From positions 41,162,348 through 41,226,347 of the forward strand of contig NC_134825.1 in assembly GCF_004210375.1 (NCBI RefSeq): a stretch of DNA of 64,000 bases, given 5' to 3'. Below are positions 1 through 60,480 of the stretch, piece by piece. A program made the translations under genes and the position numbers. The notes below the pieces were generated by a model. It did no database searches and was not told the DNA's origin. It saw only the letters and a list, made by a program, of their open reading frames with translations. The stretch comes from Tachypleus tridentatus. Its lineage: Eukaryota > Arthropoda > Merostomata > Xiphosura > Limulidae. How positions within the stretch are numbered: position 1 is the first letter of the stretch; every line of letters starts with the position of its first letter.

Positions 1-2825
1 CTAAAGTATTCACAGTAAATAACATGTTATTTATTGAATATTTTAGAGTAATGTGATTTGTATATAAATGAGCTGTTCCCAGTGTCTTCAGAATGTCAAG
101 TTACCTGAACTATTCGTTCAAGCGTGCGTGGCTCACCAGTGAGCTCGAGGGTTAATGAAGATAAAATTCAAGTGACTGACACAATAAACTTAAGCTTACT
201 TTGAGCTCAAACAGACAAACAGAGCCTAGTGAGTGAACTTTATCCGAGTGTTTATTGTTACGAAGTATACTTTTTGTAATTTGAAGGTTTCAAACAATCT
301 TTAACTCTGTATGCTATACACGTTTTACGTGATAGAAAATCTACTTTTAACCAAAATGTACTCTTCTTGAATTTCATGTAAGTGTTGTGCATCATTTAGT
401 TTCATATGTCACATCGTTATTCACGATTTTCATTCAAGTTACCGTGTGCGTTTTGTTGCTAAGAAACTCAAGCATTCATACACCAGTAGGTAACAAGTCT
501 CAGGATCTTTTGTAAAAGTATTGAAATCCACCTTGTATGCATTGGTTTACTGTGTTCATGTTATACTGTAATATAGAATCCCATAAAAACAATGACAATT
601 TAGAGCCTACTAAATTTATTTGTAGTTAAAAACAAAGCTACGCAGAGGGCTATGTGTACTCTGCCCTCCACGGGCGTTGTAAGTCCGCAGACCTATCATT
701 GTGCCACTAGTTTGAAAACAGACAAAATAAAAAATAAAGGGTCTTTTAGCTTCAGTAGACCGTAGTTTATGATAAGCACTACCTCATTTATCTAAAATGT
801 TTCTCTTCTGAGAATAGATCCTTGTCCCAACTTCATTGACCACAGATATTTTATAATTACATCAAACGCATTTTTGCAATATTTATCTCAAAACCATATT
901 TTTTGTAAATATTCTATCACCGTTCACAAACTTCTCTTCATAACAATCAACAAACTAATTTCACTCGATATCAAATAAATATTAGTATAAAATCTCCATA
1001 CTTGACATACTTTTATATAACATAAAAAGTTGCGAAATATAAGAGTTATTTATGCCTCTTTTAGCAAATAAATTCAACTAAAATGGGAACATGCAATTAA
1101 AAGAGAAAGTATAATTGGGGAAAAAGAGTGGAACTGAACACGTGTAACTCACGAAATTCGAAGAAATCGAAGGTGAATGACCGACAAACACTTGATTTTT
1201 ATAATAATGATTAACGGTTCAAATACTCTAACGAACTGTGGCTGTAGTTCACATATTTGGAGAAAAACAATAAATACCTCACGCTATCTACTTTCAGAAG
1301 AAAACGTGTGAATTAACTTTATGTTTTCTATATTCACGTATTAATGAATTATATCAGATAATCTAATTGAAATAGTAATGACAGAGACCTAAAGTTCAAT
1401 CAGTGACTTTTAATTTTATGGAGAATATGTCAACACATCCTACTTCTTGTAAACTAAGTAGTGAATTTTAAATCCATGACTTAAATATTAGAGATCACGT
1501 AAGCTTTATTTTAAACATACTAATAAGAATCTGTAATTATATTTTCAACAATTCCAAAACGCGTCAATAAAAAAGTCATTAATCTTAATACAAAGTATGA
1601 TTTTATCTAATTAAGTAAAGAGGAAAAATGACGTTTATGTGTGTTATTTATCATTTAATATTATGTTATTATACGAATATTTAGATTACAATGTGACATT
1701 TCCCTCATGACAAAGTGTTTTTAAGAAAGTTCCACCAAACACCTAACTGATTTATTATGGAATACGAATCATTTAGGTTTTACTGAACCGTTTACAGAAT
1801 AATATTTCTTGAAAAGCACTGATTAAAAAAGTGAGGTTATTATTAATTGTAAATATTAAAAACTTCCAGGTATTGCTTTACAAAATGGATATTCATGCAT
1901 ATGCGGCAGAACGTTTTTTTAATAAAATTTAGAAATATACCTTTAAGAATTGAATAATTTTATAATAATGTGTTCATAATTTTCGATACATGAAAAAAGT
2001 AGCGATTTTATCAGTTTTTGTCCAGAGTGTTGTATCAGAGGTGCAGAGGTTAATGACGACTAACCATGTCTTTATTATATTAAAAATCACATATTTTACT
2101 GAGATTTAATATGTGGAGCTAAAGAAACAGTAACTTTTTTATCAGAAGCAAAAATCTGCAAAAGTTACTTTTGTTGATAATAATCAAACAACTTGAGTTT
2201 TGAACTTAAATTTGTAATGCTGTATTACACTTCAACTAACAGAAACACTGTAGAAAGGTACGAAATGAAACATATATTCGAAATAGCTAATAGTAATAAA
2301 AATATATTTATGTATGTATTCAATACGCAAAACTATCGTTGACCCTAACAAATCATTAATATATTATTTTCTTTTACGAATTCCTTAGGGTTTAAACAAA
2401 AGACTTGAAAGACTTGGGATAATTATTAATATTTGATGCTTATGAAGTGAAAGTATTGTTGTTTTTTACTGAAGAATATCTGTCGTCTACCCACAATGGT
2501 AACGAAACGCGGTAGCTAAGGTGTATAAGTCTACTTGTGGTTATTTAAAAATAAACAGATTTAACAATTACAATGTACTATATACGATCACAATATACTG
2601 ATGGTATAGCAGGTAGAACAGCGCCGGAAGGGAAAAGGTTATTTTTTTTTTCCTATAGTGTTGAGCAAATTTTCTCGTAAAACGTGTTTTATATGTTCAA
2701 CTTGTTAGGTTATCTACTAATTGAAGTTAAATGGATTTCACCACACGTGTTCTGTGAATAAACAAAATATTTGAACGTAAATTTTAAAATTAACGGTTAT
2801 TTTAAATGTTCCACTACTAATACAT
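1..2825. other. Array sequence without genes, unit A left part
   Basis: AT-rich non-coding sequence, repeated closely at 31747-34560 and less closely at 18978-21950 and 47628-48895. Apart from a short second-family SINE remnant near 623-708 I see no gene, no long open frame and no splice-bounded coding stretch. Confidence 0.8.
623..708 (-). mobile_element. SINE remnant, second family (unit A)
   Basis: In reverse it holds the tail block of the second tRNA-derived SINE family: CTCTGCCC..CACGGG..GTTGTAAGTCCGCAGAC, then ACAAAGCTACGCAGAGGGCT. The tRNA-like head is truncated. The same remnant is at 32362-32459 (unit C) and 19603-19670 (unit B), so it predates the duplication of the units. Confidence 0.6.
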
Positions 2826-3125
2826 TTTGTTCAAACAGTGTATAATACGGTTACAAAATGAAAACAGTATACTTAAAGAAAAAACACAAAGGAAAGACAT
2901 ATATGTCAGAGCAAAGGGAATATATATATATTATTCAATTCATAGAAATACGTTCGATGCGAAAGTATTATATCATTTTTCATTGTTTAAACAGCTTTTC
3001 AAAATACGTGTTTACATACAAAGATGGGGTTGACGAAGTAAAGTTTGAATATGTAAATCTGATAACAATGAGGAATAGTAGCACCTAAATGTCATATAAA
3101 TATTACTGTGAGACGTTAATTTCAT
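2826..3125 (+). repeat. Initiator-tRNA 5' flank segment (unit A)
   Basis: About 300 bases directly upstream of the tRNA gene, with an AT-rich stretch around 2920-2945 (TATATATATATTATTCAATT). Counterparts lie before the tRNAs in B (21950-22240), C (34560-34860) and D (48895-49196). Extra copies without a complete tRNA occur at 29607-29804 and 50668-50880. Short open frames inside it (such as 2827-3033) recur only because the DNA is duplicated. A role in tRNA transcription is possible, but nothing in the sequence proves it. Confidence 0.7.
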
Positions 3126-3197
3126 AGCAGAGTGGCGCAGTGGAAGCGTGCTGGGCCCATAACCCAGAGGTCCGTGGATCGAAACCACGCTCTGCTA
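3126..3197 (+). tRNA. Initiator tRNA-Met (CAT), intact, unit A
   Basis: A 72-base cloverleaf with the hallmarks of eukaryotic cytosolic initiator tRNA. The acceptor stem AGCAGAG/CTCTGCT starts with an A1-U72 pair. The anticodon stem ends in three consecutive G-C pairs around loop CCATAAC. The T loop reads ATCGAAA, with A54 and A60 in place of the usual T54 and pyrimidine 60. The T stem CGTGG/CCACG pairs fully. The internal pol III promoter is present: box A TGGCGCAGTGG and box B GGATCGAAACC. A TTTT run at 3206-3209 would end transcription. No intron, and no encoded CCA. It delivers methionine to the start codon. The same 72 bases are found in units C and D. Confidence 0.97.
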
Positions 3198-3205
3198 ATA
3201 TTACG

Positions 3206-3209
3206 TTTT
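3206..3209 (+). terminator. Pol III terminator of tRNA-iMet, unit A
   Basis: First run of four T downstream of the mature tRNA 3' end, eight bases after it. Confidence 0.75.
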
Positions 3210-3640
3210 CATAACTTCATTTCTCGGTGATCAATGTCATTTAATTCATTTCAAACTAATAAGTACTGCTAGGAGCTTCTTTGTTCTCTATTATATATTA
3301 ATAATTCTTGATGTACTTACACTAATTAGGGTTTTGTATTCCATCGTTAGTTTGCTGCGTGTTTTAGTCTTTTCTTTTCACATGCCTTCCTTCATTTCAT
3401 GTGTATATAGTTTGTTATAACGTAAAACATATTGGAACATAAAAAAACGAAAATACATTGCACCAGCTGAAATGATCCCAGGTTATATGGAGGGTTTTGG
3501 AGGTGTTAGCGAAAGTAGGACCTACGTTGTGCTGGGGATACATCGTCAATCAGTCTTAACATCCATTCGCCAGTTTCACAAAATAAGTTTGCTCCCATTT
3601 TCCTATCATCAAATAGAATAGATAACTTTCTTCCTCCAGA

Positions 3641-3740
3641 AGGAATGCAGTTAGTCATCACCACCCACCGCCAAGTCTTCGGCTACTCTTTTATCAACGA
3701 ATAGCGGGATTGATCGTCACATTATAACGCCTCACTTTAC
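3641..3740 (-). mobile_element. SINE family 1 fragment (unit A)
   Basis: Central part of the tRNA-Thr-like SINE, in reverse: the AGTCATCACCACCCACCGCCAA block and the ACGAATAGCGGGATTGATCGTCAC block. Head and tail are missing. Unit C has the same fragment at 35375-35474. Unit B keeps a much more complete copy at the same place (23410-23687), so A and C share a later trimming. Confidence 0.8.
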
Positions 3741-3744
3741 AACC

Positions 3745-4563
3745 AAGTATACTTGTCTTGTCTTGTATGTCTTGTCTCACACGTACACAATAACCTAGCA
3801 TCGTTTCTGTAGATTCGTCAATAGTGTAAGCAATTTTGAATCATAAAGCAACAGTAAAAAATTTCTTTTTCTGGCAGAATCTCAATGGAAACATTTTAGA
3901 TCATTATATAAGCTCACATCTAAAGGGACCGCTTCTGAATTACTTTTATACTTGCAAGGTCTAAGAATGCCAAGCGAAATCCCAAATAAGAGTTTGTAGA
4001 ATGTTGTTAAACAAGAAGTTCAGTGAGTTTTAAGAAACACATATCGTTTGTGACTAAAATATACCTATTTCTACAGTGTTTCAACGTAACAAGATATTAA
4101 GAACTTGTCCAGGGCTCGTGGTACAATTCCACAACCTTATGAAACGTTCTCTCTTACGGTGCTGACTATAGAGATAATAGAATGTAAGTTATGAATGTTT
4201 ATTTAAAGTTCTTGGATCTCTCCAGCATTGTTTTCATTTAAGATTCTCTTTTTCTACGTCATAACAAGTCTGTGCAACGCTACCTTGAATTTTTGGAAGG
4301 AATTAGAAATGATATGATAATGCTTTTTGTTCAGTATGTCACCTATCCGTAGAAATATGCTTTTTTTAGAAATTACTCTCGTGAATATGACCGCTTATGG
4401 TGTTCACTACTTTAACGCAGTTAAACATGAGAAAATTTCATTTAAGTAGCTTTAACCTCTTATGTTTTCTGTCTGTTAAAGACCCCTAATCATTAAGCTA
4501 CTTTGTCAAAAGATGTTTTCGTTTAACGTTATTAGGTTCTATGTACATTTTCCAGACTCGTTA
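3745..4563. other. Array sequence without genes
   Basis: Non-coding unit sequence matched at 35480-36296 (C) and 23700-24559 (B). I see no gene or RNA structure here. Confidence 0.7.
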
Positions 4564-4574
4564 AGTTAATAAAG

Positions 4575-4703
4575 TTGTTGTTGTTGTTTGAATTAAGCAC
4601 AAAGCTACAGAATGGGCTATCTGTGCTTTGCCCACCACGGGTATCGAAACCCAGTTTTTAGCGTTGTAAGTACGCAGACATACCGCTCATCTTCTGGGGG
4701 GCC
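4575..4703 (-). mobile_element. SINE family 2, with target duplication (unit A)
   Basis: Complete copy in reverse: a tRNA-like head with a box-B-like GGTTTCGATAC, a body with TGGGCAAAGCACAGATAGCCCA, and a (CAA)n tail. It is flanked by AGTTAATAAAG (4564-4574) and AGTTAATCAAG (4704-4714). Unit B holds the uninterrupted site at 24560-24570. The insertion therefore happened in the common ancestor of A and C. Confidence 0.88.
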
Positions 4704-5934
4704 AGTTAATCAAGAGTAAAAACATTTCTCAAAGAACTTTTCAATATATTGCATACACTTCTGTGATTTTGTGAGAAGTAAATTTTACATTCCTATTAAA
4801 GTACTTATGAAAAATACAATAACCTAATTATTTACATCTAGATGAGTTATGTATTTGTAAACCTACTCTTTAAGCCTTAGATTTGTTTTCACTCGTTAGA
4901 TAAAGTTTCGGGGGAAATACTCATGTTACGAAAGTTATATGGAAGGATTTCTGTGTATTTGAGAAACAAAATATATATAAACGTCAATGACACTAACTGA
5001 GCACAGTCGCTAGTAATTCAAGAAAAACTTTTCTCGAATTATAAACAATATAGCAGAACTCATAACACAAATAAGCTAATTGTGTGTTTAATCCATGTGT
5101 AGAAACGGCAACGTATGTCTTGAGCGGTTCTTTGACTTGATTTGTAAATGAACACGGTTCAGTCGGATGAATAAATAGATATTAATACACACTCTACGAT
5201 CGCTGTAGTAGTGCTGTGAAAACATCATAGACTTATCGGGTTTCATGGTTTAAACGCTTTAAGTCATGTTGTTTGTAATTAATATTTTCAACGTTTATTT
5301 TATTTGCATTTGGTGCGAATTCATCAGTTGGAAGTGTATTCTATTCTAAGGGCTCTAAAGGTGTTCTACAAAGATATCTTTCAAAAGTATGTGACTTAAA
5401 AATAATTTCACACTCTTTCTTTATAATGCAATTATTCTGAATATTTGAAAGTATGTAGTTATTGTTTTTTCTACAAATTCTTGTAGAATGTTGATGCTAA
5501 ACATAAAGCGTTAATTAAAAGTAAGATAATAAATAACTACGACGCCCAGAGGACGTATAAGGCATTTGTGAGAATAAAAAGTAAACTAGTCCACAGTATG
5601 TTACGGTACAAAATAAAAAGAAAAAAAATTAATTTTAATCTGTTGATTTAGTGAATAGAAGTTCAGAGCTACAGTTTATGATGAAAAAAAAGAAATTTAA
5701 CAAAGTGATATGTTGAAAACGATGTCACCTGTTATTATGAACTTCTACAAAAAATATCTTCGAAATAATAGTATTTTATTTCACCATTCGTGTTTTTTTA
5801 GTAATCAGATATCTAATATATTTTACTGTTTTACCCACACTTATTGTATGGACTGTAGATGTATGGAAATGTGTGCCGAATATTCCGATATTTTATCATT
5901 TAAAACACTCTGGTATAAACAATGTAATATATTT

Positions 5935-5999
5935 AGCAGAGTGATGCAGTTGTAGCGTGCTGTACTCATAACTCTGTGGATAGAAATTACGTTCTGCTA
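5935..5999 (+). pseudogene. Degraded initiator tRNA-Met, B-like tract of unit A
   Basis: The 65 bases keep both ends (AGCAGAG and TTCTGCTA) and part of box A (GATGCAGT). The anticodon stem, variable region and T arm are eroded and seven bases are missing. The same relic is at 25493-25557 (identical) and 37233-37297. It marks an older tRNA duplication within the unit. Confidence 0.8.
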
Positions 6000-7805
6000 G
6001 ACAGATTTCTGGATTTTGATAATTTCTTAACGTCATTAATACATTTTTAGCAATTTTCTTTTTTCTTACAACATATGTTTTCTTTCTCTTGTGTGATTGT
6101 AATTTACTTTATATAACAGAATACCCAAATATTTTGTCTTCTTTACATATATTCTCTTAATAACGTAAAACTACGCATGCGTTAACAAATCATAGACCAC
6201 ACATTATATTTTAATTTAATATAAATTTTCAATTTTATGTAATGTAATAAAACATTGAGATAACGAATAGTAAAATTTTCCATTTCTCTTCTCAACCGTG
6301 TAAAGCTAAACAAAATAGTCTATTGATTGTAATTAATGTTACTTTAAATAATGTCTATTATTTTAATAAAAATACTTCACCCTATTAATTAGCGTTTTGG
6401 AGTAATTGCAGGTAAATAAGTTTTATTAGTGATATTAAAAGGTCAGTTTATAACCAATTCAATTCACATTAAAATATTTAGATGTTGAAGAACGTCTTTG
6501 TTTTTGGGTCACACGTACACAATAACCTAACACACAGTTACACAAACATTTTATATCTTATTTAAACGAATAATATAACGCAGATATAACTGGACTTAAT
6601 TTGAATTTTTAATTCCATGTAATGTGATAAAACAACAATATAGATAAATAACACAATTTGTGTAGAGTAAGTTTAGTATTTCATTCCTTTAAAGAAATAA
6701 CGATTTTAATAATATTAGTCTATGGATTGTAGATAATCTGGTTGTTTAAATAAATTAATTTAACGCAGATATAACTGGATTGTAGATAATCTGGTTGTTT
6801 AAATAAATTTGGATAATTTTAAAAAAACGCCACAGCGCTTTAATAAGTGTGCCTGATTATAATTTTGGTGTAATTACAGGTAACTGGGTTTTTTTGGTAA
6901 TATTCAAAAAGTCACTTAATAAATATCAACTATTTTTGAAATAACTTTGTACTTTTAACATGAGCTATATCTTTGTCATTATCCTTGTCTCTGTTTTTGA
7001 GGTATTTTTTTTATGAATGTTGATTATAATTGTTTTACCTATCTATTCTTTAACGAAGTTTTAATAATAATATTATTTTAAATTATTTTCCCTCTGTATT
7101 TCTCCTGTGTATACTCGTCTCTTCTGTCTTAAAATTTTCAAAAAGGTTTTCATTTAATTTTATTTTTATTATTTTCACATTCATTATTTCTTTTCTTCTA
7201 TTTCTTCATCTTCTGTCTTTCTTTTTTATTCCAAACACTTCTCTATCAACTGCCATTCCTTCAATTTTCAGTGGATAAAGTAAAACTTGGTACTATCATG
7301 TCATGATCTAATTTAATCATACATTTTTTTTTTTTTATTCATGTTTTTTATATAGATTTTGTAGAGTCAAAAGTCAAACTAACCAAAAATGTAGACTTGC
7401 CTTTCTATGTGGTCCTATTTGTAGCAATCAATATGAAATATAGTAGAAATATGAAATGTTCATGCGTCCAACACAATTAAATAAAAAAGGTTGGGTGTGC
7501 GTATTTTGAATTATTTCAGGTGTGTCAAGTGTCGCAGACATATATGGTCCTGTGGCATTACTCATTACTCGGCCGTACTTTAAGAAATTTACATGAGAAT
7601 TTAAATAAAAACTCTTTCATATAAGTCTCGTGTATTGACAAACAAAAGTGGTTTACTTGATAATTGTTAAAAAAGTAAAATAGGATGAAGATGCATCAAA
7701 ATCTTAACAGTTAGTTCTCCATATTTCAGGGATTTAGGTCAAGATACTTCTTCACAGTTCACATACATTTACATTCCAAAATGCGTGGTATGTCCATTTT
7801 TGGTC
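6000..7805. other. R segment of the unit, no genes
   Basis: An internal repeated segment that begins with ACTACGCATGCGTTAA and ends with CATTTTTGGTC. Its counterparts are 25558-27317, 10350-11830 and 39930-41450, with shortened ones after 22984 and 49945. It includes a pyrimidine-rich stretch (about 7130-7260) that gives spurious open frames. No gene is visible. Confidence 0.75.
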
Positions 7806-8345
7806 GTAACAGAATACATAAATATTTTGATGTCTTCTCAGGGGCATAGCCAGAAATGGCCATTGGGGGGGGGGTTAGTCTGAGTGCTTGATGAAAGCGT
7901 CGCAGGCGCGAAGCCATGCTAGAGGGGCCCGTGGCAAGGCCCTCTCCAGAAAATTTTATAAATAGAAACATAAAAAAAGCCTGATTTATGCATTCTGAGA
8001 CCACGTTTTTGGTAAATTTCATCATCGCACACTGAGGTGTTTGTCTTATTTTTTTAAATCATAAATAAATATATAGGCATATTTATATAATATATAACTT
8101 AAAATTATCAGGCCCAGCAAAGTAGGCCTACAGTCCTGTCATCAATATATAAAATAAGAGTCACTCAGGAGAGTGCAAAATATATGTATAGTGTCTACAA
8201 TCTGTATTCAAATAACACGGACAGTGTATGTTTAGATTTCCTGGATTTCAAGAAATAATTTCACAAATAAACAGCGGGTGGCACCGTGGCCGGCTAGCAG
8301 CACCATGGCACTAATCTAGTCCTCAAATTCAAAATGAAATAATCA

Positions 8346-10138
8346 ATGCCTGTAATACTCATGTTCTTGATGCTTTGGTCAACAGGGTTAAAGTGTTTCT
8401 CAATATTAGCTGATGAAACAACAGATATTTCAGGCATTGAATATTTGGCGCTGTGTGATAGATATTTGCTTGCCAATGACAACTCTGTTGCAATGAGAAA
8501 AAATTTTTTGCAATTTATACCTGTTTATGATGTGACAGGCAGAAACCTGGCTGATGTTATCATAACCAATCTGACAAAATATGGTATTGACATGGCTTAT
8601 CTTCGAGATCAAGGATACGACAGTGATTCCTCTATGAGTGGGAAATTCAATGGTGACCAGAGACACGGCCCGGCATGGCCGAGCGTGTTAAGGCGTTCGA
8701 CTCGTAATCCGAGTGTCGCGGGTTCGAATCCCAGTGGCACCAAACATGCTCGCCCTTTCAGCCGTGAGGGCGTTATAATGTGACGGTCAATCCCACTATT
8801 CGTTGGTAAAAGAGTACCCCAAGAGTTGGCTTTGGGTGGTGATGACTAGCTGCTTTCCCTCTAGTCATACACTGCTAAATTAGGAACGGCTAGCACAGAT
8901 AGCCCTCGAGTAGATTTGCGCGAAATTCAAAACAAAGGAACCAGAGACACAACTGATAACTTCCCACTTGCACCCTATGTACACTGCAGTGCCCATTCCC
9001 TAAACTTGGCTATTTCTGATGCTTGTAAAGAAGTTCCTGTGAGAAATTGCATAAGAGTAATTTCTAGGACTGAAAACTTTCTCAATACACCCAAACGAAA
9101 GCACGTTTTGGCTCTTTCGGTGGAGAATAAAGCACCTGAATCGAAAAAAAAAAAGTTTGAAAGGTCTCTGCTCCACCCGGTGGGTTGAGAGGCAGGATTC
9201 AGTAATTGTCTTTCTAGAATTAATCCATGCAGTTGCAGATACCCTTGAGACCATATTAGGTTGGCAAGACAGAGATTCTGCTACGCAAGCCAATGAATTG
9301 TTGTGTTCTATAGCACAGCCAGAATTCATCATCACTCTACTTACCATTGCTAAATTGTTTTCCGTCAGTTTACCTCTGTGCAACTTACTGCAGCAATAAA
9401 ACATTAGGTTAGGTGTTGCGATGCATCACACAGAAATAGTAGAAAATTTAATCCGTTCACTCAAAAATAATACTGTGAATGAATTTAACAACATTTTCTG
9501 TGAGGCTCAAACTATGTGTAGGGAGCTTCAAATTGACATCGTAATGCCAAGGCAGGCTAAAACGTTCTAACCCACAAAACACTAGCCCTGAGGAGTACTT
9601 TCGTATTGTTGTACTGGTACCATTTGTTGATCACTTTCTTTCACAAATATGTGACTGTCTGTCCAGTCACAAAACTCTCCTTACAAACTTCATGCGTCTA
9701 CTACCATCAGGATCTACCACAGAACGGTCAGAACCTACAGCACAACAATGTGACCAAATTAAAAAGTTGGTCAACATATACATGGCTCACATTGACAGCA
9801 CTTCACTAGTTGCAGTGGGTGAACTTAGGGTTTTGTACAAATCACTTATGAACAACAGACCAAACAATGTCATACATTCATATGCAATGTACAATGCATA
9901 AATGTTCCTTGTCATTTCTAGACTGTTGAAAGTAGTTGCTACGCTGCCTGTGTCAACAAGAACAGTGGAACGGTCGTTTTCAACTCTCAGAAGACTCAAA
10001 AGGTATTTGAGAAATACCACCACTGAAGATCGATTGAATGGCCTGGCCTCATTATACATTCACCGTTATATTAAAGTTGAACCAAATTGTGTTGTAGATG
10101 TCCTGGCAAGAACGAACAGGCGTTTGAGCCTTTCATAG
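8346..10138 (+). pseudogene. hAT transposase remnant (ZMYM1/DUF4371-like), unit A
   Basis: Conserved blocks lie in order in three different frames. ADETTDISG and FIPVYDVTGRNLADVI fall in 8346-8650. VHCSAHSLNLAISDACK is near 8970-9030. STRWVERQDSV lies at 9160-9200. The C-terminal dimerisation block LPVSTRTVERSFSTLRR runs through 9935-9990. In this family the protein cuts and pastes the element. Here a 270-base SINE splits the DUF4371 region, the frame changes at least twice, and stops occur between blocks, so no active protein can be made. The unit C copy has the same architecture. Confidence 0.88.
8667..8938 (+). mobile_element. SINE family 1, nested in hAT (unit A)
   Basis: Complete copy. 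The tRNA-Thr(CGT)-like head starts with GGCCCGGCATGGCCGAG and has box B GGTTCGAATCC. The long body contains CACTATTCGTTGGTAAAAG and GGTGGTGATGACTAGCTG, and the tail is GCGCGAAATTCAAAACAAA. It is flanked by an 11-bp target duplication ACCAGAGACAC (8656-8666 and 8940-8950). The same insertion is in unit C. Confidence 0.95.
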
Positions 10139-10345
10139 ATATTCGATTGTATTTGTCTAGTTCTGACAAAACTTTCTGTATTAGAAGTGTTCAATCAGAA
10201 ATTTGCATTTGAACATTTCTTGTGTGTGAAATTATCTGTCATGCAATCACGGATCTTTATGAAACTTCACAGGTGGCAACTGAACTTGTCTAAAACGTTT
10301 GGGTCCATGGGAAAGTTAACCCCAAGCCCCCCTTGGCTACGCCCC

Positions 10346-12566
10346 ATATATTCTCTAAGTAACGTTAAACTACGCCTGCGTTAACAAACCATAGACCATA
10401 CTTTGATTTAATTTAAATTTTAAATTTTATGTAGTGTAATGAAACATTGAGATAGAGAATAGCTATTGAATAAAGTAAAATTTTATTCTTATTTTCTCAA
10501 CCGTGTAAAGCTAAACAAAAATGGTCTGTTGATTGTTAATAATCTGATTCGTTAAATTATGTTTTATTATTTTAATACAAATACTTCTCCCTATTAATTA
10601 GCGTTTTGGAGTAATTGCAGGTAAATAAGTTTTATTAGTAATATTAAAAGGTCAGTTTATAACCAACTCAATTCACATTAAAATATTTAGATGTTGAAGT
10701 ACGTTTTTGTTTTTGTGTCACTTGTACACAATAACCTAACACACAGTTACACAAACATTTTATATCTTATTTAAACGAATAATATAACGCAGATATAACT
10801 GGACTTAATTTGAATTTTTAATTCCATGTAATGTGATAAAACAACAATAAAGATAAATAACACAATTTGTATAGAGTAAGTTCAGTATTTGATTCCTTTA
10901 ATGAAATAACGATTTTAACAGTCTTAGTCTATGGATTGTAGATAATCTGGTTGTTTAAATAAATTTGGATGATTTGAATGAAATACTTCAGTGCTTTAAT
11001 TTGTGTGCTTCACTATAATTTTGGTGTAATTACAGATAACTAAGTTTTTTTGGTAGTATTCAATAACTCGCTTGATCAACTATTTTTGAAATCATGTTCT
11101 ACTTTTAACTTTTATAAGACGTTTCAGATGAGCTATATCTTTGTCATTATCTTTGACTCTGTTTTGAGGTATTTTTTATGAATGTTGATAGTAATGTTTG
11201 ATATATTTTTTGTCTTATCTATTCTTTAATATATTTATAATAATAATAATTTTAAATTATTTTTCCCTTTCTATCTCTCCTGTATATACTCGTCTCTTCT
11301 GTCTTAACCTTTCCAATAAAATTACATTTAATTTTATTTTTATTATTTTCACATTCATTATTTCTTTTTCTTTTATTTCTTCTTCTTCTTTCTTTCTTTT
11401 ACCAAACACTTCTCTATCAATTGCCATTCCTTCAGTTTTCAGTGGATAAAGCGAAACTTGGTATAATCATATCATGGCCTAAATTAATCATACAGTTTTA
11501 TATTTTTTAATTCAAGTTTTTAATACAGATTTTAAAATAAGTCAAACCACCCGAAAATCTAGATTTGGCTCTCTATGTAGTCATATTTGCCTTAATCAAT
11601 ATGAAATCTGGCAGAAATATTAAATGACCATGCGCCCAACACATATAAATCAGAAAAGTTGGGTGTACATGGTTCTGTCGCATTAGTCATTACTCGGCCG
11701 TATTTTAACCAATTTACATGAGAATTTAAAGAAAAAACTCTTTCATATAAGTTTCGTGCATTGACAAACAAAAATGGTGAACCTGACAATTGTTAGAAAT
11801 TCAAATCGGATTATATGCACATTTTTTTGGTCATATTATGAAAGCCAGAAAGTTAAAATAAACTCATTGGAGATTTAGTGTATCATTCAGCCCCGTTTAG
11901 ACCAACTTACATGCAAGGCGGCAAAGAGGTACTTTTCTACAGCTCCTCTAAACTGGCACCCTATAAATTTGGACTTGCTCGTTTTCAGTAATAAATGGGT
12001 GATTGAGAAGCCAAAGGTTGTTGTTCTTTACAACTACGACACAGTATTCATATTTTGGTCAAGTTACCAGAGATGTAGCACAAATATACCTTTTTAAACG
12101 TTTTAAACAGAGATGTGGACAGCTTTGATATTTTTCTCTTTTTGCTCAATTTTTAGGAAGAAAAGAACAATTGGTCTGTACCTCTAGTAATGTAGATGGT
12201 ATTTAGTAAAAATATACCTCTTTGCACGTAACAAACAGTGATATAGACAATTGTCGATATTTTTTTGTGTTTTTCATTATTTTCATGGTGATAGGTAGGC
12301 CATGATGGAATTCGTGATGGAGACATACTGCATTCTTCCCTTAAATTCTTTAATGTCTTTTTCTATATAGTCTCGTAATTATCTCATGTTTCTAACTGCT
12401 ACATCTATCCTTCAAACCTTCTTTTACTGCCTATAACAAGGTGCAGATCTGTCTAATCCAAAAGTCAATGCTAAAATATTTAGCGTGAATTATTTTTAAA
12501 TGTTTCCTCCCTTTTCTACTACACATGCCATATCGATACTCAACCATTTAACCTAGAATTCACAGA
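10346..12566. other. Unit sequence without genes (second R segment)
   Basis: A diverged repeat of the R segment (10350-11830), followed by sequence shared with C (41450-42180) and in part with B (27320-27784). Pyrimidine-rich tracts near 11340-11420 explain the open frame there. No gene seen. Confidence 0.7.
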
Positions 12567-12832
12567 GACTTGACAAGGTGATTTAGACACCCGACTTGTA
12601 ATCTTAGAGTCCAGAGTTCGAATCTTTATTGCACCAAACATGATTGCCCTTTTAGCAGTGGGGGGTAATGTAAAGTGACGGTCAATCCCACTATTCTTTG
12701 TAAAGGAGTAGTCCAATAGTTGGCAGTAGGTGGTGATGACTTGTTTCATTTCCTCTAGTTTTACACTGCTAAAATAGGGACGGATATCGCAGATAGCCCT
12801 CTTGTAGCATTGCGCGAAATTCAAAACAAACC
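12567..12832 (+). mobile_element. SINE family 1, old copy (unit A)
   Basis: Full-length but diverged: head with GACTTGTAATC and GAGTTCGAATC, body with GGTCAATCCCACTATTC and TAGGTGGTGATGACT, tail GCGCGAAATTCAAAACAAA. The unit C counterpart is 42181-42445. Confidence 0.88.
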
Positions 12833-13700
12833 ATAGAATCCCAATATATTTCATTCTATATCTGTTTACGTTATTTCAATTTATAATGAACTGAGCCTTC
12901 GATTTAATCTCTTTTAGTGTTATTATCATAAGTTCTGTGGTTAGTTCGGAAGTAAACTGGAAAAAAGTTTTTTGTTGTGAAAATATCTACAAATTATTCG
13001 TGAACATGGTCAAACTTCTAGCAAAACAAAACCTAAAACATCTTTGAAAAAGTAGGTTGTCACTCCTTGTCTCTAATGCTATTAAAATCATGATTCTCAA
13101 AAATAACAACAAAGAAATGAAATAAAGCTGTCGTAGCTTGTCAGAAATATGTCTAGATCCAGCTATTAGTTTTACTAGCCGATCTTCCAGAGACACAGAC
13201 TGAACTTTTTTGTTCTTTCAAGATTCAACCATATCACAATCACGTACTAGATTTTTTCACAAACATTAGTTCTAACCTCATTACATATATATACTTAATA
13301 AAACAACATAAACATAAGATTTAGTCAAATATCTTGATTATTTAAAAGTATAGAGAATAGTTCCAGAACTCTCACTTGGTTGATGATAAGGAACGCTAAT
13401 TTTGATTCATACGAAAACTATTATCTTACTGACAAACATGTTTGTTTGTTTTTTCGTTTTTGTTCTACTGAATCACGAGCAATTAAAATACTCAACTCAA
13501 ATCTGTTTTCTTCGTAGGTAACACTAATAAGTACACAATTTTCATAATTTGTATAGGGGTATGTGAAGAACGTGCAGTTACTATATTGAAGCTGTGCATT
13601 AATAATTAATAAACACATAACCGGTAACAACATTAGTAGTTTAAACTAGATTTCGTAAAATGAATGCGGGACTCTAGTAGATAAAGAAAATTCGTGAAAT
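12833..13700. other. Array sequence without genes
   Basis: Shared with unit C 42446-43312 and absent from B. Short open frames on the minus strand differ in ends between A and C and show no family signature. Confidence 0.6.
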
Positions 13701-13773
13701 TATTGGCGTTGTGTGGTTTCGATTCACGAATTTTGGGGTTATTAGCCCAGCACACTTTTATTGCGTCTTTCTG
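13701..13773 (-). pseudogene. Degraded initiator tRNA-Met, inverted (unit A)
   Basis: Read in reverse it keeps GTGTGCTGGGCTAATAACCCC and the T-arm TGAATCGAAACCACAC of the initiator tRNA. The anticodon is changed to TAA-like and the acceptor stem no longer pairs. The copy at 43313-43385 in unit C is almost the same. Confidence 0.75.
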
Positions 13774-15090
13774 ATATTATTGTACAGTCTTAATAATAAA
13801 GCTTACGAAGGTTAATAAATAAACGTTTTTAATCGTATTTTCAAATATTGTATAATAAATAACAATATTATTGAAAATTGTATCAACGTCACACCTACTA
13901 TCAGTTTTATGTACGTAAGCTCCATGACGTTAAGCCTAGAAAAAAATATTTTTTAGTTATTTTAAAAGGAAAGAAAAATACAATAGTTATTCTCCGAAAT
14001 TCAATTTATGAGTTCGATAACATATCATCATTTATGACGAAAAATTTACCAAGCTCGTATACAGTAACGACGGTTATGTGTTCGTCGTTGGTTGATGTTG
14101 TTTTCTATATAAAACTTGTAGTTAGTATGAAAGTTATATATCAATTTAGCTACAATGTGGAATTCTAATAAGCTGAAATTTACATGTTTTGAATTCACAC
14201 AAATACTTTGTTACTTTACACACACAAAAGAAAAATATTTGTTCCTTTATATAATTAGCAATAGTCGAAGGTTGAACATACTTTTGCGTATCTTCAACGT
14301 CCTTAAAAGATTAAACAAGTCTTACCCCTTCCTAAGAGGCTCAAAACTCTTTTCACGAAAAATGTAGTTTAAAAGTTCGAAGCAAATACGTTTTTAATTC
14401 TAACACTGCTCTGCATTCGATAACATCGGTACTTTACATTTTTTGGGCATGTTTTGATTTTTAAGTTAGCTTCACTGACTAAAGTCATGTTTTAAAGAAT
14501 AATATTCATCTGAGTATCGGGTTACCGGCTGAGACAACCGAGGGGAATCGTACCTCTGATTTTAACGTTGTAAAACCCAAGTCTCCGTGGAATGTGGTAC
14601 GTTTTTGAAGTTAATTGACCCAGGTTAGTCGTCACTAAACTTTGGCACGAGATCACAAACCATAGAACTATATTATTGCATTCGCTTTTTCTTTCTGGAT
14701 ATTTGGATATGCTGAAATTTCGATACCCAGGATGGTCAATTGCAAAGTACCTCATTATTGTATTAAAATATTCATTTGAACATTCATGATAAACTATTTT
14801 CAAAACTCACTTTCCTTGACACATTTTGATTTACTTACATAAAAAAAAGAAATTATTTATGTAACTTAAAACGACATTTCCTACGACATAGTAATATATT
14901 AAACTATGAAGCTGTTGTTAGCTAGAGTAACCAGACTTTGTTAGTAGAAAAATTAAATATCACAAAATAAATATTTCTTTTTACGAGAGATAGAACCTGA
15001 CATTATAATTCTACAGTTACTATGGAAATATTGTAGAAAGCAATGCAAAAGGATACAACTCTATTACTCGGAAAAGAGAATTTTTCTATA
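13774..15090. other. Array sequence without genes
   Basis: Shared with unit C 43386-44708, and in a much older, diverged form with 51030-51600. It contains a third-family SINE remnant at 14513-14592. No gene seen. Confidence 0.6.
14513..14592 (-). mobile_element. SINE family 3 remnant (unit A)
   Basis: In reverse: TTTTACAACGTTAAAATCAG, AGGTACGATTCCCCTCGG and TGTCTCAGCCGGTA, which is the tRNA-like head and start of the body of the third family. The counterpart in C is 44125-44200. Confidence 0.65.
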
Positions 15091-15168
15091 TGTCTCCATA
15101 TTTGAGTAGTGTAGGTCTAGAGGGAAGGTAGCTAGTCATCTCCACTAACCACCAACTATTTGGTTTCT
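15091..15168 (-). mobile_element. SINE family 1 fragment (unit A)
   Basis: Only the central block survives (GTGTAGGTCTAGAGGGAAGG, then CACTAACCACCAACT). The counterpart in C is 44709-44785. Confidence 0.7.
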
Positions 15169-34932: not shown

Positions 34933-34940
34933 ACATTACG

Positions 34941-36307: not shown

Positions 36308-36437
36308 TTGTTGTTGTTGTTTTAAATTAAGCACAAAGCTACAGAATGGGCTATCTGTGCTTTGCCCACCACCGGTATCGAAACCCAGTTTTTAGCGTTG
36401 TGAGTCCGCAGACATACCGCTCAGTTTCTGGGGGGCC
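36308..36437 (-). mobile_element. SINE family 2 (unit C)
   Basis: Orthologue of 4575-4703. Left target copy AGTTAATAAAG at 36297-36307; the right copy (AGCTACTCAAG, 36438-36448) has mutated. Confidence 0.85.
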
Positions 36438-37232
36438 AGCTACTCAAGGGTAAAAGCATTTCTTAAGGAACTTTTTTAATATATTGCATACACTTCTGTG
36501 ATTTTGTGAGAAGTAAATTTTACATTCCTATTAAAGTACTTACGAAAAATACAATAACTTAATTATTTACATCTAGATGAGTTATGTATTTGTAAACCTA
36601 CTCTTTAAGCCTTAGATTTGTTTTCATTCCATAGATAAAGTTTCGGGGGAAATACTCATGTTACGAAAATTATATGGAAGGATTTCAGTGTATTTGAGAA
36701 ACAAAATTTATATAAACGTCGATGACACTTACTGAGCACAGTCGCTAAAGGACTAAATAAACAAAAATAAAGCGCTATTTAAAAGTAATTTAATAAATAA
36801 CTACTCACGTATTAACCGCAGTTGTAGTTAACGCCCAGAGGACTTATAAGGCATTTGTAAGAATAAAAATGTGAAATAGTCCACAGTATGTTACGGTACA
36901 ATATTAAAAAGAAAGAATTTTAATTTTAATCTGTTGATTTAGTGAATAGAAGTTCATAGCTACTGTTTATGACGAAAAATGTTAAAGGAATTTAACATAG
37001 TGATATGTGTTAAAAACGATGTCACCTGTTATTATGAAGTTTTACAAAAAATATCTTTGAAACAATAGTATTGTATTACACCATTTTATTTTTTTTTAGT
37101 AATCAGATATCTAATATATTTTACTGTTTTACCCACACTTATTGTATGGACTGTAGATGTATGGAAATGTGTGTCGAATATTCCAATATTTTATGATCTA
37201 AAACACTCTGGTATAAACAATGTAATATGTTT

Positions 37233-37297
37233 AGCAGAGTGATGCAGTTGAAGGGTGAATCACTCATAACTCTGTGGACAGAAATTACGTTCTGCTA
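37233..37297 (+). pseudogene. Degraded initiator tRNA-Met (unit C)
   Basis: Third copy of the relic at 5935 and 25493, with further changes in the middle (TTGAAGGGTGAATCACTC). Both ends are still recognisable. Confidence 0.75.
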
Positions 37298-37883
37298 GAT
37301 AGTTTTCTGGATTTTGATCATTTCTTGTCGTCAATACTGAATTTTAGCTATTTTTTTTTCGCCTACAACTTATGTTTTCTTTTTCTTGTGTGATTTTAAT
37401 TTACTATATATAACAGAATACATAAATATTTTTATGTCTTCTCAGGGGCGTAGCCAGAAATGGCCATTGGGGTTTAGTCTGTGTCCTTGATGTGTTCCGT
37501 GGCAAGGAATCTCCCGGAAATTTTAAATAAAAAACATAAAAAAAAGCCTGAATTATGCATTCTGCGACCACCTTTTTGGTACATTTCAGAATGGCACACT
37601 GAGGTGTTTTTCTTATTTTTTTAAATCATAAATAAATATATAGGCCTATATATATAATATATAACTTAAAATTATCAGGCCCAGCAAAGTAGGCCTAGAG
37701 TCCTGTCATCAACATATAAAATATGAGTCACTCAGGAGAGTGCAAAATATATGTATAGTGTCTACAATCTGTATTCAAATAACACGAACAGTGTATGTTC
37801 AGATTTCCTGATTTCAAGAAATAACTTCAAAAAATAAACAGCGGATGCACCGTGGACGGCTAGCAGCACCATGGCACTAACCT

Positions 37884-39710
37884 AGTCCTCAAATTCAAAA
37901 TGAAATCATCAATGCCTGTAATACTCATGTTCTTGAGGCTTTGGTCAACAGGGTTAATGCTGCAAAGTGTTTCTCAATATTAGCTGATGAAACAACAGAT
38001 ATTTCAGGCATTCAACAGTTTTCGCTGATTGTTAGATATTTGCATGCCAATGATAACTTTCTTGCAACGAGAGAAGATTTTTTTGCAATTTATACCTGTT
38101 TATGATGTGACAGGCAGAAACCTGGCTGATGTCATAATAACAAGTCTGACAAAATATGGTATTGACATGGCTTACCTTCGAGGACAAGGGTACGACAGTG
38201 ATGCCTCTATGAGTGGGAAATTCAATGGTGACCAGAGACACGGCCCGGCATGGCCGAGCGTGTTAAGGCGTTCGACTGTAATCCGAGTATCGCGGGTTCG
38301 AATACCGGTGGCACCAAACATGCTCGCCCTTTCAGCCGTGGGGCGTTATAATGTGACTGTCAATCCCTCTATTCGTTGATAAAAGAGTACCCCAAGAGTT
38401 GGCGGTGGGTGGTGATGACTAGCTGCTTTCCTCTAGTCATACATTGCTAAATTAGGAACGGCTAGCACAGATAGTCCTCGAGTAGCTTTGCGCGAAATTC
38501 AAAACAAAGGAACCAGAGACACATAACTGATAACTTCACACTTGCACCCTATGTACACTGCAGTGCCCATTCCCTAAACTTGGCAATTTCTGATGCTTGT
38601 AAAGAAGGTCCTGGGGGAAATTGCATAAGAGTAATTTCTAGCACTGAAAACTTTCTCAATACACCCAAACGAAAGCACGTTTTGGCTCTTTCAGTGGAGA
38701 ATAAAGCACCTGAATCGGAAAAAAAAGTTTGAAAGGTCTCAGCTCTACCCGGTGGGTTGAGAGGCAGGACTCAGTCATTGTCTTTCTAGAATTAATCCAT
38801 GCAGTTGCAGACACCCTTGAGACCATATCAGGTTGTCAAGACAGAGATTCTGCCACGCAAGCCAATGAATTGTTGTGTTCTATAACACAGCCAGAATTCA
38901 TCATCAATTTACTTACCATTGCTAAATTGCTTTCCTTCAGTTTACCTCTGTGCAACTTACTGCAGCAATAGAACATTGATTTAGGTGTTGCAATGCATCA
39001 TACAGAAATAGTGAAAGATTTAATCCGTTCACTCAGAAATAATACTGTGAATGAATTTAACAACATTTTCTGTGAGGCTCAAACTGTGTGTAGGGAGCTT
39101 CAAATTGACATCATAATGCCAAGGCAGGCTAAAACGTGCTAACCCACAAACCACTAGCCCTGATGAGTACTTTCGTATTGTTGTACTGGTACCATTTGTT
39201 GATCACTTTCTTTCACATATATGTGACCGTCTGTCCAGTCACAAAACTCTCCTTACAAACTTCATGCGTCTACTACCATCAGGATCTACCACAGAACGGT
39301 CAGAACCTACAGCACAACAATGTGACCAAATTGAAGAGTTGGTCAATATATACATGGCTCACATTGACAGCATTTAACTAGTTGCAGTAGGTGAACTTAG
39401 GGTTTTGTACAAATCACTTATGAACAACAGACCAAACAATGTCATGCATGCATATGCAATGTACAATGCATAAATGTTCCTTGTCATTTCTGGACTGTTG
39501 AAAGTATTTGCCACGCTGCCTGTGTCAACGAGACCAGTGGAACGGTCGTTTTCAACTCTCAGAAGACTCAAAAGGTATTTGAGAAATACCACCACTGAAG
39601 ATCGATTGAATGGCCTGGCCTCATTGTACATTCATCGTGATATTAAATTTGAACCAAACTGTGTAGTAGATGTCCTTGCAAGAACGAACAGGCGTTTGAG
39701 CCTTTCATAG
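37884..39710 (+). pseudogene. hAT transposase remnant (ZMYM1/DUF4371-like), unit C
   Basis: An open stretch from about 37886 reads through NEIINACNTHVLEALVNRVN and ADETTDISG. A one-base T insertion near 38088 shifts the frame to FIPVYDVTGRNLADVI. After the SINE follow CSAHSLNLAISDACK, STRWVERQDSV and the dimerisation block VERSFSTLRRLKRYLR, in changed frames. The N-terminal part is slightly longer in phase than in unit A. The element cannot encode an active transposase. Confidence 0.88.
38242..38510 (+). mobile_element. SINE family 1, nested in hAT (unit C)
   Basis: Same insertion as 8667-8938, with the target duplication ACCAGAGACAC at 38231-38241 and 38512-38522. A few private changes separate the two copies, for example one base missing in the anticodon region. 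Confidence 0.95.
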
Positions 39711-39916
39711 ATATTCGATTGTATTTCTCTAGTTCTGACAAAACTTGCTGTATTAAAAGTGTTCAAACAGATATTTGCATTTGAACATTTGTTGTGTGTG
39801 AAATTATCTGTCATGCAATCACGGATGTTTATGAAACTTCACAGGTGGCAACTGAACTTGTCTAAAAGGTTTGGGTCCATGGGAGGGTTAACCCTAACCC
39901 CTTGGCTACGCCCCAA

Positions 39917-42180
39917 TGTCTTTATACATATATTCTCTTAGTAACGTTAAAGTACGCCTGCGTTAACAAACCATAGACCATACTTTGATTTAATTTAAAT
40001 TTTAAATTTTATGTAGTGTAATGAAACATTGAGATAGAGAATAGCTATTGAATAGAGTAAATTTTTATACTTATTTTCTCAACCGTGTAAAGCTAAACAA
40101 AAATGGTCTGTTGATTGTTAATAATCTGATTCGTTAAATAATGTTTTATTATTTTAATAAAAATACTTCACCCTATTAATTAGTGTTTTGGAGTAATTGC
40201 AGGTAAATAAGTTTTATTAGTAATATTAAAAGGTCAGTTTATAACCAACTCAATTCACATTAAAATATTTAGATGTTGAAGTACGTTTTGTTTTTGTGTC
40301 ACTGTACACAATAACCTAACACACAGCTACACAAATATCTTATACCTTATTTAAATATCTGTGTATCAATGATGTAAAACCATGCTTGTGTTAACGATTA
40401 ATATAACGCAGATATAACTGGATTTAATTTGAATTTTAATTCCATGTAATGTGATAAAACAACAATAAAGATAAATAACACAATTTGTATAGAGTAAGTT
40501 TAGTATTTGATTCCTTTAATGAAATAACGATTTTAACAGTCTTAGTCTATGGATTGTAGATAATATGGTTGTTTAAATAAATTTGGATGATTTGAATGAA
40601 ATACTTCAGTGCTTTAATTTGTGTGCTTCACTATAATTTTGGTGTAATTACAGATAACTAAGTTTTTGGTAATATTCAATAGGTCGCTTGATCAACTATT
40701 TTGAAATCATGTTCTACTTTTAACTTTTATAAGACGTTTCAGATGAGCTATATCTTTGTCATTATCTTTGACTCTGTTTTGAGGTATTTTTTATGAATGT
40801 TGATAGTAATGTTTGATATATTTCTTTTGTCTTTCTATTCTTTAATGAATTTATAATAATAATAATTTTAAATTATTTTTCCCTTTGTATCTCTCCTGTA
40901 TATACTCGTCTCTTCTGTCTTAACCTTTCCAATAAAATTTCATTTAATTTTATTTTTATTATTTTCACATTCATTATTTCTTTTTCTTTTATTTCTTCTT
41001 CTTCTTTCTTTTTTTTTTCCAAACACTTCTCTATCAATTGCCATTCCTTCAGTTTTCAGTGGATAAAGCGAAACTTGGTATAATCATATCATGGCCTAAA
41101 TTAATCATACAGTTTTATATTTTTTAATTCAAGTTTTTAATACAGATTTTAAAATAAGTCAAACCACCCGAAAATCTAGATTTGGCTCTCTATGTAGTCA
41201 TATTTGCCTTAATCAATATGAAATCTGGCAGAAATATTAAATGTTCATGCGCCCAACACATATAAATCAGAAAAGTTGGGTGTACATGGTTCTGTCGCAT
41301 TAGTCATTACTCGGCCGTATTTTAACCAATTTACATGAGAATATAAATAAAAAACTCTTTCATATAAGTTTCGTGCATTGACAAACAAAAATGGTGAACC
41401 TGACAATTGTTAGAAATTCAAATCGGATTATATGCACATTTTTGGTCATATTATGAAAGCCAGAAAGTTAAAATAAACTCATGGGAGATTTAGTGTATCA
41501 TTCAGCCCCGTTCAGACCAACTTACATGCAAGGCGGCAAAGAGGTACTTTTCTACAGCTTCTCTAAACTGGCACCCTATAAATTTGGACTTGCTCGTTTT
41601 CAGTAATAAATGGGTGATTGAGAAGCCAAAGGTTGTTGTTCTTTACAACTACGACACAGTATTCATATTTTGGTCAAGTTACCAGAGATTTGGTACAAAT
41701 ATACCTTTTTAAACGTTTTAAACAGAGATATGGACAGCTTTGATATTTTTCTCTTTTTTGCTCAATTTTAGGAAGAAAAGAACAATTGGTCTCTACCTCT
41801 AGTAATGTAGATGGTATTTAGTAAAATATATCTCCTTGCACGTAACAAACAGTGATATAGACAATTGTCGATATTTTTTTGTGTTTTTCATTATTTTCAT
41901 GGTGATAGGTAGGCCATGATGGAATTCGTGATGGAGACATACTGCATTCATCCCTTAAATTCTTTAATGTCTTTTTCTATATAGTCTCGTAATTATCTCA
42001 TGTTTCTAACTGCTACATCTATCCTTCAAACCTTCTTTTGCTGCCTATAACAAGGTGCAGATCTGCCTAATCCAAAAGTCAATGCTAAAATATTTAGCCT
42101 GAATTATTTTTAAATGTTTCCTCCCTTTTCTACTACACATGCCATATCGATACTCAACCATTTAACCTAGAATTCACAGA
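39917..42180. other. Unit C, R segment and following sequence, no genes
   Basis: Counterpart of A 10346-12566. It includes one extra R-like insertion near 40345-40390 (ATCAATGATGTAAAACCATGC). No gene seen. Confidence 0.65.
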
Positions 42181-43312: not shown

Positions 43313-43385
43313 TATTGGCGTTGTGTGGTTTCGATTCACGAATTTTGGGGTTATTAGCCCAGCACACTTTTATTGCGCCTTTCTG
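43313..43385 (-). pseudogene. Degraded initiator tRNA-Met, inverted (unit C)
   Basis: Orthologue of 13701-13773, nearly the same sequence. Confidence 0.75.
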
Positions 43386-49196: not shown

Positions 49197-49268
49197 AGCA
49201 GAGTGGCGCAGTGGAAGCGTGCTGGGCCCATAACCCAGAGGTCCGTGGATCGAAACCACGCTCTGCTA
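49197..49268 (+). tRNA. Initiator tRNA-Met (CAT), intact, unit D
   Basis: Again the same 72 bases as in units A and C, although the surrounding unit belongs to the diverged B/D subfamily. That contrast suggests selection or conversion keeps the tRNA itself uniform. Box A TGGCGCAGTGG, box B GGATCGAAACC, and a TTTT run at 49277-49280. Only a few bases separate the acceptor end from AT-rich flank, as in the other units. Confidence 0.97.
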
Positions 49269-49276
49269 GCATTATG

Positions 49277-49280
49277 TTTT
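49277..49280 (+). terminator. Pol III terminator of tRNA-iMet, unit D
   Basis: First TTTT run, nine bases after the tRNA 3' end. Confidence 0.75.
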
Positions 49281-50667
49281 CATAATTTCTTTTCTTGTTC
49301 ATCAGTGTTGTTTACTTTACTTTAAACTTATAAGTACAACCAGTGTTTCTCTTCTAATCTATTATATATTTCTAATTTGTGATGTACTTATAATCACGCT
49401 AATTAGATTTTTTTATTCCATCGTATGTTTGCTGCATGTTTTAGTCTTTTCTTTTCACACGCCTTCCTTCATTTTATATGTATATAGTTTGTTATAACAA
49501 TAAACAAACCACAACATAAAAAACAATGAAAAACACTGCACCAATTGAAAAGATTTCAAGGCATATGGCATGCAATTATCCTTGATTTTGGATGTCATAG
49601 CGGAAGTAGGACCCACGTTGTGCTGGAGATATATCGTCTATCAGTCTTAACCTCCATTCACCAGTATCACAAAATAAGTTTGTTCCCATTTTCCTGTCAT
49701 TAAATAGAATGCATTACTTTTTTCTTCATCAAATGTGATTTTCATTTTTCCTTCCTTTTGTTTTCGTCTTGTTTAATATTTCAAATACTTTAACCAATTC
49801 TTTCTTATTGTATCTTTGCTGTCTCTTATACAGTTACATAATATTCTCACGTGCATTCGTCAACTAACAACTGCTGTTTTCTTTCTCTTGTGGAACTTCA
49901 ATTTATGATATGCAACAGACAGTTACACAAATATTTTTCCATCAATGACGTAAAACTACGCATGCGTTAATAATTCATAGAGCACAGATATATTTGGATT
50001 TAATCTAAATTTCTAATTTCATGCAGTGTAGTAAAACATCGAGCTAAAAAATAACTTTTGAACAGAGTAAAATTTTCCATTTCTTTTCTTTAACCTAGTA
50101 AAGTTAAACAAAAATGGTTTATTGATTGTAAATAATCTGGTTCTTTAAATAATGTTTTATTATTTTAATAAAAATACTTCACCCTATTGCTTATTAGTGT
50201 TTTGGAGTAATTGCAGGTAAATAAGTTTTACTAGTGATATTAAAAAAGTCAATTTATAACCAACTCCATTCACATTTAACTATAATCAGATGTTGAAGTA
50301 CATCTTTGTTCTTGTCTCACACATTTAAACAAGAAAAGTTGGGTTTGCCTGTTTTCAATCATTTTAGGTGGGTCAAGTGTCGCAGACATACATGGTTCTG
50401 AGGCATTAGTCAAATTTTTGGCCGTATTTTGACCAATTTACATGAGAATTTAAATAAAAAACTCTTTTATATAAGTCTCATGTATTGGCAAAAAAATGGT
50501 GGATTGGGTAATTTTAGTAAGTAAAATAGGGTCAAGATGCAACAAAATCTTAACAGTTACTCTGCCATATTTCAGGGATTTTGTTCAAGATACTTTTTCC
50601 CAGTTCACATACATATACATTCCAAAATGCGTGATATGTCCATTTTTGGTCATATTATATATGCTAA

Positions 50668-60471: not shown

Positions 60472-60480
60472 TCTTTAACA

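Follow-up and report, generated by a model that had tools for sequence, protein, structure and literature searches.

The stretch of DNA analysed here (the window, 64,000 nucleotides at positions 41162348–41226347 of contig NC_134825.1, hereafter C1, in the 2.167-Gb, 205-contig assembly of the horseshoe crab Tachypleus tridentatus) carries a series of genes for initiator tRNA-Met (iMet) and the remains of others. Read together with its surroundings (256 kb, C1:40990001–41246347), the window is the right end of an array of about 202 kb that occupies 41.010–41.212 Mb of C1 and that, judged from its sequence, is very probably a birth-and-death array of initiator genes.

ARAGORN and Rfam call three tRNA-Met genes in the window, at about 3125–3198, 34860–34934 and 49197–49268, and these are the intact genes A (3126–3197), C (34861–34932) and D (49197–49268), all on the forward strand. 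Each has a CAU anticodon and a cloverleaf fold (57.7 bits with Rfam model RF00005), and each is followed, 8 nt downstream, by TTTT as a terminator for RNA polymerase III (Pol III). Their 72-nt sequence shows an A1-U72 end pair, which is a mark of initiator tRNAs, along with A20, A54, A60 and no base 17 (the numbering is our own). Passages on yeast in PMC10602860 give A20, A54, A60 and the missing U17 as initiator marks. A first-pass annotation of the window had placed an initiator tRNA-Met at a fourth position as well; sequence comparison and the profile search described below find there a pseudogene, B (22241–22305, forward strand), which has lost 7 nt of its anticodon arm and does not pass as a cloverleaf with a CAU anticodon.

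The head-to-tail series of four units that had been described is borne out. The four copies, which we call the heads of the units, start at 3126, 22241, 34861 and 49197, all in forward orientation, and the spacers between them are homologous. The landmark GGTAGCTAAGGTGT occurs exactly, and once, upstream of each head (0.25 matches with up to 2 mismatches are expected by chance), and in B and D it is followed by an extra stretch resembling a short interspersed element (SINE), as had been noticed from the letters alone. With the tRNA excluded, the head flanks of A and C are 96.4% identical, against 83.7% for B–D, 82.0% for C–D, 81.8% for A–D, 80.6% for B–C and 80.1% for A–B, so the pairs A–B and A–C, whose comparison had been proposed as a check, are far from equal. 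A and C also agree over kilobases (1–5012 with 31747–36747, 96.8% in a self-comparison of the window); their three longest blocks are 93.6–96.8% alike, and most A/B and B/D blocks about 78–90%.

The array and a shorter counterpart at 33 Mb

A profile search (E up to 1) finds 45 iMet-derived sites between C1:41009868 and 41211544, 30 on the forward and 15 on the reverse strand, and none in the remaining ~54 kb of the region read. Eleven of them lie in the window. The array had been taken to span window positions 1–50655; it starts well before base 1, its first site being 152 kb further upstream of the window start. By our own sorting it holds twelve A heads (one with a 7-nt deletion), five B heads (all with a 7-nt deletion) and one D head, together with decayed copies of four classes, R1 (12), R2 (8), R3 (3) and R4 (4). 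The GC content of its unit is about 31%. The large tandem array of the first-pass annotation is real, but it exceeds its description in size, age and layering, and the history proposed for it fails, as set out below.

An inverted, shorter version of the array lies 8 Mb away, at C1:32.99–33.03 Mb, where the same search finds eight iMet-derived sites in the 40 kb read. One assembly holds both the long and the short version. Along a 22-kb stretch that includes C and D the identity with the 33-Mb locus is 98.7%, and both edges of the array are present there, the left flank (C1:40991001–40994000) at 99% and window positions 51001–53700 at 97%. Either the 33-Mb locus is an allele misplaced by the assembly, or it is a real duplication. 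We consider the chances about even that the two loci are a long and a short allele of one locus and the array a tandem repeat whose length is polymorphic in this individual, a view compatible with the birth-and-death reading. The two edges and the 22-kb stretch speak for alleles, as do the count of 8 sites against 45 and the near-identical duplicates found for all three left-side pieces tried. The copies, however, are inverted and 8 Mb apart on the same contig, the neighbouring pieces have their partners elsewhere and not in one collinear block, and a true inverted segmental duplication predicts identical matches. Moreover, to the right of a 500-N assembly gap that lies beyond the array (window 53798–54297) there is a large repeat, with copies mostly 90–99% alike on contigs C9, C10, C13, C19 and elsewhere, for which there is no 33-Mb copy among the 40 candidates scored in either search.

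This repeat extends from window 58301–61300 on to C1:41245347, and two probes from it, 21.7 kb apart, are similarly spaced on C9 and C19. On the left side, C1:40890001–40891500 has a 99% copy at C1:38.95 Mb, and C1:40700001–40701500 has copies of 100% and 99% on contig C5; the near-identical copies of these 40.89- and 40.70-Mb pieces stem either from large duplications of recent date or from allelic contigs left in the assembly.

That the assembler multiplied the unit copies is improbable. Such an origin would be in keeping with the presence of a second 500-N gap, inside the array upstream of the window, in addition to the one on its right, and with the 98–99% likeness of some copies. Against this, the copies differ by about 1–20%, with private deletions, insertions and substitutions, and the sequence runs without a break for the ~61 kb from one gap to the other.

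Decayed copies and the mosaic structure of the units

Apart from A, C and D and the deleted B, the seven iMet-derived sites that the profile search finds in the window are decayed. Three are R1 copies on the forward strand, at 5935–5999 (with a 7-nt deletion and substitutions), 25493–25557 and 37233–37297 (a second variant). The other four are on the reverse strand: R4 copies at 13702–13773 and 43314–43385, an R3 copy at 15912–15977 (its flanks about 80% like those of R2, with a SINE-like repeat in the flank) and an R2 copy at 28747–28814. The units had been described as built around one tRNA position, with little else in them, which is wrong, since they hold several such sites on both strands. 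The one-tRNA unit of that description is therefore a higher-order unit that contains several older gene sites, and its 13–19 kb is not the basic length, as upstream of the window there are two runs of three A copies 5.3 kb apart.

It is very unlikely that these extra sites belong to a tRNA-derived SINE family instead of being remains of array genes, even though they are short, occur in both orientations and share the window with many SINE-like repeats. With its flanks, the R4 copy at 13702–13773 has five matches in the genome, all of them in the array and the 33-Mb locus; flank-including matches of the R2 copy are likewise confined to these two loci, and R2 matches beyond them (on C1, C8 and C11) cover the tRNA part only. 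The queries were R2 and R4 (pieces of R3 surfaced in the R2 search; R1 and R3 were not queried themselves), and the search skips very common words, so the absence elsewhere is not absolute. On these results a tRNA-derived SINE origin of R2 and R4 was ruled out.

The patch at 5142–7805 (forward strand) is 97% identical to 24674–27317, against about 80–87% in other A/B blocks, which points to conversion or unequal exchange and makes the units mosaics. Self-alignment of the array finds similar blocks at offsets from 5.3 kb to more than 170 kb, many of them 96–99% identical. When the window was scanned in 1-kb bins for its best partners in the array and the 33-Mb locus, positions 1–5000 paired with 41.118–41.122 Mb (the first bin with 41.136), 5001–6000 with 41.110 Mb, 6001–21000 with 41.139–41.154 Mb and 21001–25000 with 41.125–41.129 Mb, in each case at 98.6–99.8%, so that the best partners of A lie overall at 41.110–41.154 Mb, 26–57 kb upstream. 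Unit C (31001–42000) is best matched at 41.022–41.032 Mb, about 171 kb upstream, or at the 33-Mb locus (98.0–99.6%), and from 42001 on the best partner is the 33-Mb locus (96.5–99.7%). From 44001 on, no 1-kb bin finds anything above 93.4% in the array, and the sole close partner of D is at 33 Mb.

A maximum-likelihood tree was built from the flanks of 21 of the 22 head sites with the tRNA removed (41081910 was left out, and two rows are under half filled). In it, the sister of B is 41126070, 58.5 kb upstream (support 96/93), and that of D is the D copy of the 33-Mb locus (100/100). A branch with 100/100 support sets B and D apart from all A-type copies, which agrees with the A/C and B/D subfamilies of the first-pass annotation; the B/D separation is old. 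The annotation had derived the four units from an ancient A/B duplication and one recent copy of the 31.7-kb dimer, a history that is hardly credible: although A is far more like C than like B, and B and D share the SINE-like stretch and their side of the tree, B–D and A–C identity should then be about equal and are not (83.7% against 96.4%), a forced A+C pair, which had been named beforehand, is rejected (p-AU 0.006), B and D each have a closer sister elsewhere, and the mosaic units have nearer partners outside the window. C–D is therefore not a recent copy of A–B, and A and C are not recent sisters.

One copy, 41015090, is a hybrid in which an R1-type 5′ flank is joined to an A-type 3′ flank, and exchange has therefore passed through the gene. 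In the window, alignment finds an orphan B-type 5′ flank at 29605–29824 (forward strand) that stops about 20 nt into the gene. For a preference of rearrangement breakpoints for tRNA genes these two are single cases only, no enrichment test having been run. An orphan fragment of a B-type 5′ flank lies at 50755–50880 (forward strand), near the right end of array homology. Copy 41094135 was rejected as a further breakpoint; most of its A-type 5′ flank is found about 300 nt upstream, indicating an insertion beside the gene. This insertion of about 300 bases (C1:41093827–41094135) stands some 10–15 bases upstream of an A-type tRNA gene, and insertion just upstream of tRNA genes is a habit of tRNA-targeting elements.

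Methionine tRNA genes elsewhere in the genome

The genome-wide count of initiator genes that the first-pass annotation had proposed was made by pattern search and tallied by hand. It gives 93 genes at up to 2 mismatches, copies beyond this limit being excluded: 13 on C1, one each on C8 and C11, and 78 on C13. The same pattern read backwards has no match in the genome. Exact copies of the A20 form number 11, six of them in the C1 array, three in its 33-Mb partner, one on C8 and one on C11; four further A20 copies with 1–2 mismatches are all in the C1 array. The array and its partner thus contain nine of the 11 exact A20 genes found, and the array alone just over half.

All 78 copies on C13 have G20 and so lack the A20 mark; 62 are otherwise exact and identical to one another. 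They form three groups (9463402–9770009, 14801404–15003819 and 170183026–170703507) of short-unit tandem arrays on both strands. In the three units read, one from each group, the spacers are only about 73–86% alike where they mainly align, and the 72-nt gene is identical; G20 therefore looks constrained or homogenised. No similarity to the C1 heads was found in the spacers of these units. In its passages on yeast, PMC10602860 calls the bases A20, A54 and A60 in the elbow of the initiator tRNA non-canonical and likely conserved in eukaryotes, and reports that changing A20 and A60 has no effect on the formation of m1A58. We entertain as a doubtful possibility that this horseshoe crab keeps two populations of initiator tRNA in separate arrays, the standard A20 form mostly in the C1 array and its partner, and a G20 form on C13, without one of the three unusual elbow bases. 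Each might then be used at its own stage (egg versus body, for example), with the standard supply set by the small and unstable C1 set.

A search with a 30-base core of elongator tRNA-Met gives 38 matches at 2 mismatches and none closer (hand tally, core only). Thirty-two of them are in two runs on C8, one of 19 matches at 100940747–100975413 on the reverse strand and one of 13 at 102699272–102726857 on the forward strand, with most neighbours about 1.92 kb apart. The runs are opposite in orientation and 1.7 Mb apart, and in this they resemble the inverted pair of loci on C1. Going by these matches, tandem arrays of Met-tRNA genes appear to recur in the genome (C13 for the initiator, C8 by the elongator core), among which the C1 array gives the impression of an old and fragmented one. 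It has the tandem spacing of the others, whereas spacing on C13, where each of the three units read has a single tRNA-Met gene, is short and regular (about 2.3, 2.3 and 2.8 kb), as it is on C8 (about 1.92 kb); furthermore, unlike A, C and D, the C13 copies have G20.

Among other features of the window is a broken transposase-like stretch in unit A (8343–9898, forward strand), with a match to DUF4371, presumably a mark of transposases, in one of four pieces searched; a SINE-like repeat matches 8667–8936 within it. This was the one match in a Pfam search of ten open frames of the window, out of many more listed, so that the units may still hold a host gene. A stretch of about 365 bases at 61930–62296 is ~80% complementary to itself, and an open frame in the right flank (L026:1654–1977) has a THAP domain, perhaps derived from a mobile element. 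Elsewhere in the genome, the horseshoe-crab family Coagulin (PF02035) has 19 matches, against none in 14 control genomes, and one exon shows no difference along 48 residues from the solved coagulogen 1aoc, which we take to be the T. tridentatus protein.

Probable birth and death around the initiator gene

The flanks of D are about 18% different from those of A. Going by the flanks, about 19 changes would be expected in the 72 nt of the gene on the path from A to D, and there are 0 (Poisson P 4e-9). That the two genes are identical although their flanks have diverged suggests that the gene has been kept over long times. Among the young A-type copies no constraint is visible: about 14 substitutions would be expected in the 14 rows of the A clade and 10 are found (P 0.18, or 0.06 if they are counted as 8), and selection among these copies is not supported.

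Six full-length copies account for nine of the ten substitutions, two of these copies (41055265 and 41060563) having theirs in common, and the tenth is in the deleted copy. Of the nine, seven are at G18, G19, G53 or C56, positions chosen after the data had been seen; the R1 hybrid may be the source of one case. We take these four positions to be bases of the internal promoter boxes and of the elbow. A run of at least four T stands 8–9 nt downstream in 16 of the 18 head sites. The exceptions, 41074570 and 41120944, both have changes in box or elbow bases; the T run of 41074570 is at 22 nt, and 41120944 has none within 40 nt. Decay also seems to have struck the anticodon arm more than once. The A-type copy 41108529 has a 7-nt deletion and none of the other changes of B, so its deletion and that of B look like separate events. 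Both can be read as a 7-nt loss between the CCCA repeats in CCCATAACCCA, which lie on either side of the anticodon loop; the same 7 nt seem to have disappeared in two head lineages, each time independently.

The array itself, its decayed copies and mosaic partners, its counterpart at 33 Mb, the A–D identity and the lack of visible constraint within the young A group are direct observations; taken together, they suggest birth and death around a constrained gene. The array would have started from an old block that carried several iMet genes, some on each strand. Unequal exchange, which we infer as the engine, and patchy conversion would have copied this block repeatedly at scales of ~5.3 kb, 12–19 kb, 29–32 kb, 58 kb and larger, producing a mosaic that resembles a higher-order repeat. 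Most copies would decay, while a few intact ones would supply the standard initiator tRNA from their internal Pol III promoter, their expression being likewise our inference.

Some points weigh against this account. The appearance of constraint between A and D could also come from gene conversion confined to the tRNA. Because there are gaps in and beside the array, its order may be partly a product of assembly. Finally, 11 of the 18 inner branches of the tree are open and most branches within the A clade are weak, as would be expected if conversion is common, and the tree is therefore probably a rough picture only.

Related systems are known. The tandem tRNA repeat of Xenopus laevis has kilobase-scale units that include Met tRNA genes, as here, but it is very regular and has several kinds of tRNA per unit. 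The tRNA variable number tandem repeat at human 1q23.3 has, according to passages of PMC4041453, a 7.3-kb unit and 9–43 units per allele. It resembles the C1 array in the large unit of a tRNA-containing tandem repeat, and its copy number varies strongly; as described there, however, the human unit is GC-rich and of one size, whereas the C1 array is a decayed mosaic of low GC content with one kind of tRNA and head spacings of 5.3 to at least 19 kb, and the human lengths are those of alleles, whereas the two lengths in the horseshoe crab lie at two places in one assembly and are only possibly alleles. The tRNA clusters of zebrafish and stickleback, in the account given in parts of PMC2888827, likewise group many tRNA genes and pseudogenes with fast turnover, but they are defined by spacings below 1,000 nt, under which the C1 sites, kilobases apart, would not count. 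Among the matches listed, in a literature whose coverage is thin for subscription journals, none had a title that concerned nuclear tRNA arrays of horseshoe crabs, and the term tRNA occurs 0 times in the main text, as consulted in part, of the T. tridentatus draft genome paper (PMC7011531). The array is a known kind of thing, unusually layered, and what surprises is this layering, together with the division into A20 and G20 genes, and not the proposed dimer.

Definitions of tRNA clusters that are based on spacing (<1 kb) would overlook such arrays. The split between A20 and G20 initiators is open to a direct test by tRNA sequencing. The level of initiator tRNA can limit translation, and it therefore matters where and how its gene is multiplied. 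In this horseshoe crab, one locus displays the whole life of a tRNA gene, from copies that are still intact, through others recently damaged in bases of the promoter boxes, to pseudogenes and remnants in either orientation, and it includes a hybrid that arose by exchange through the gene.

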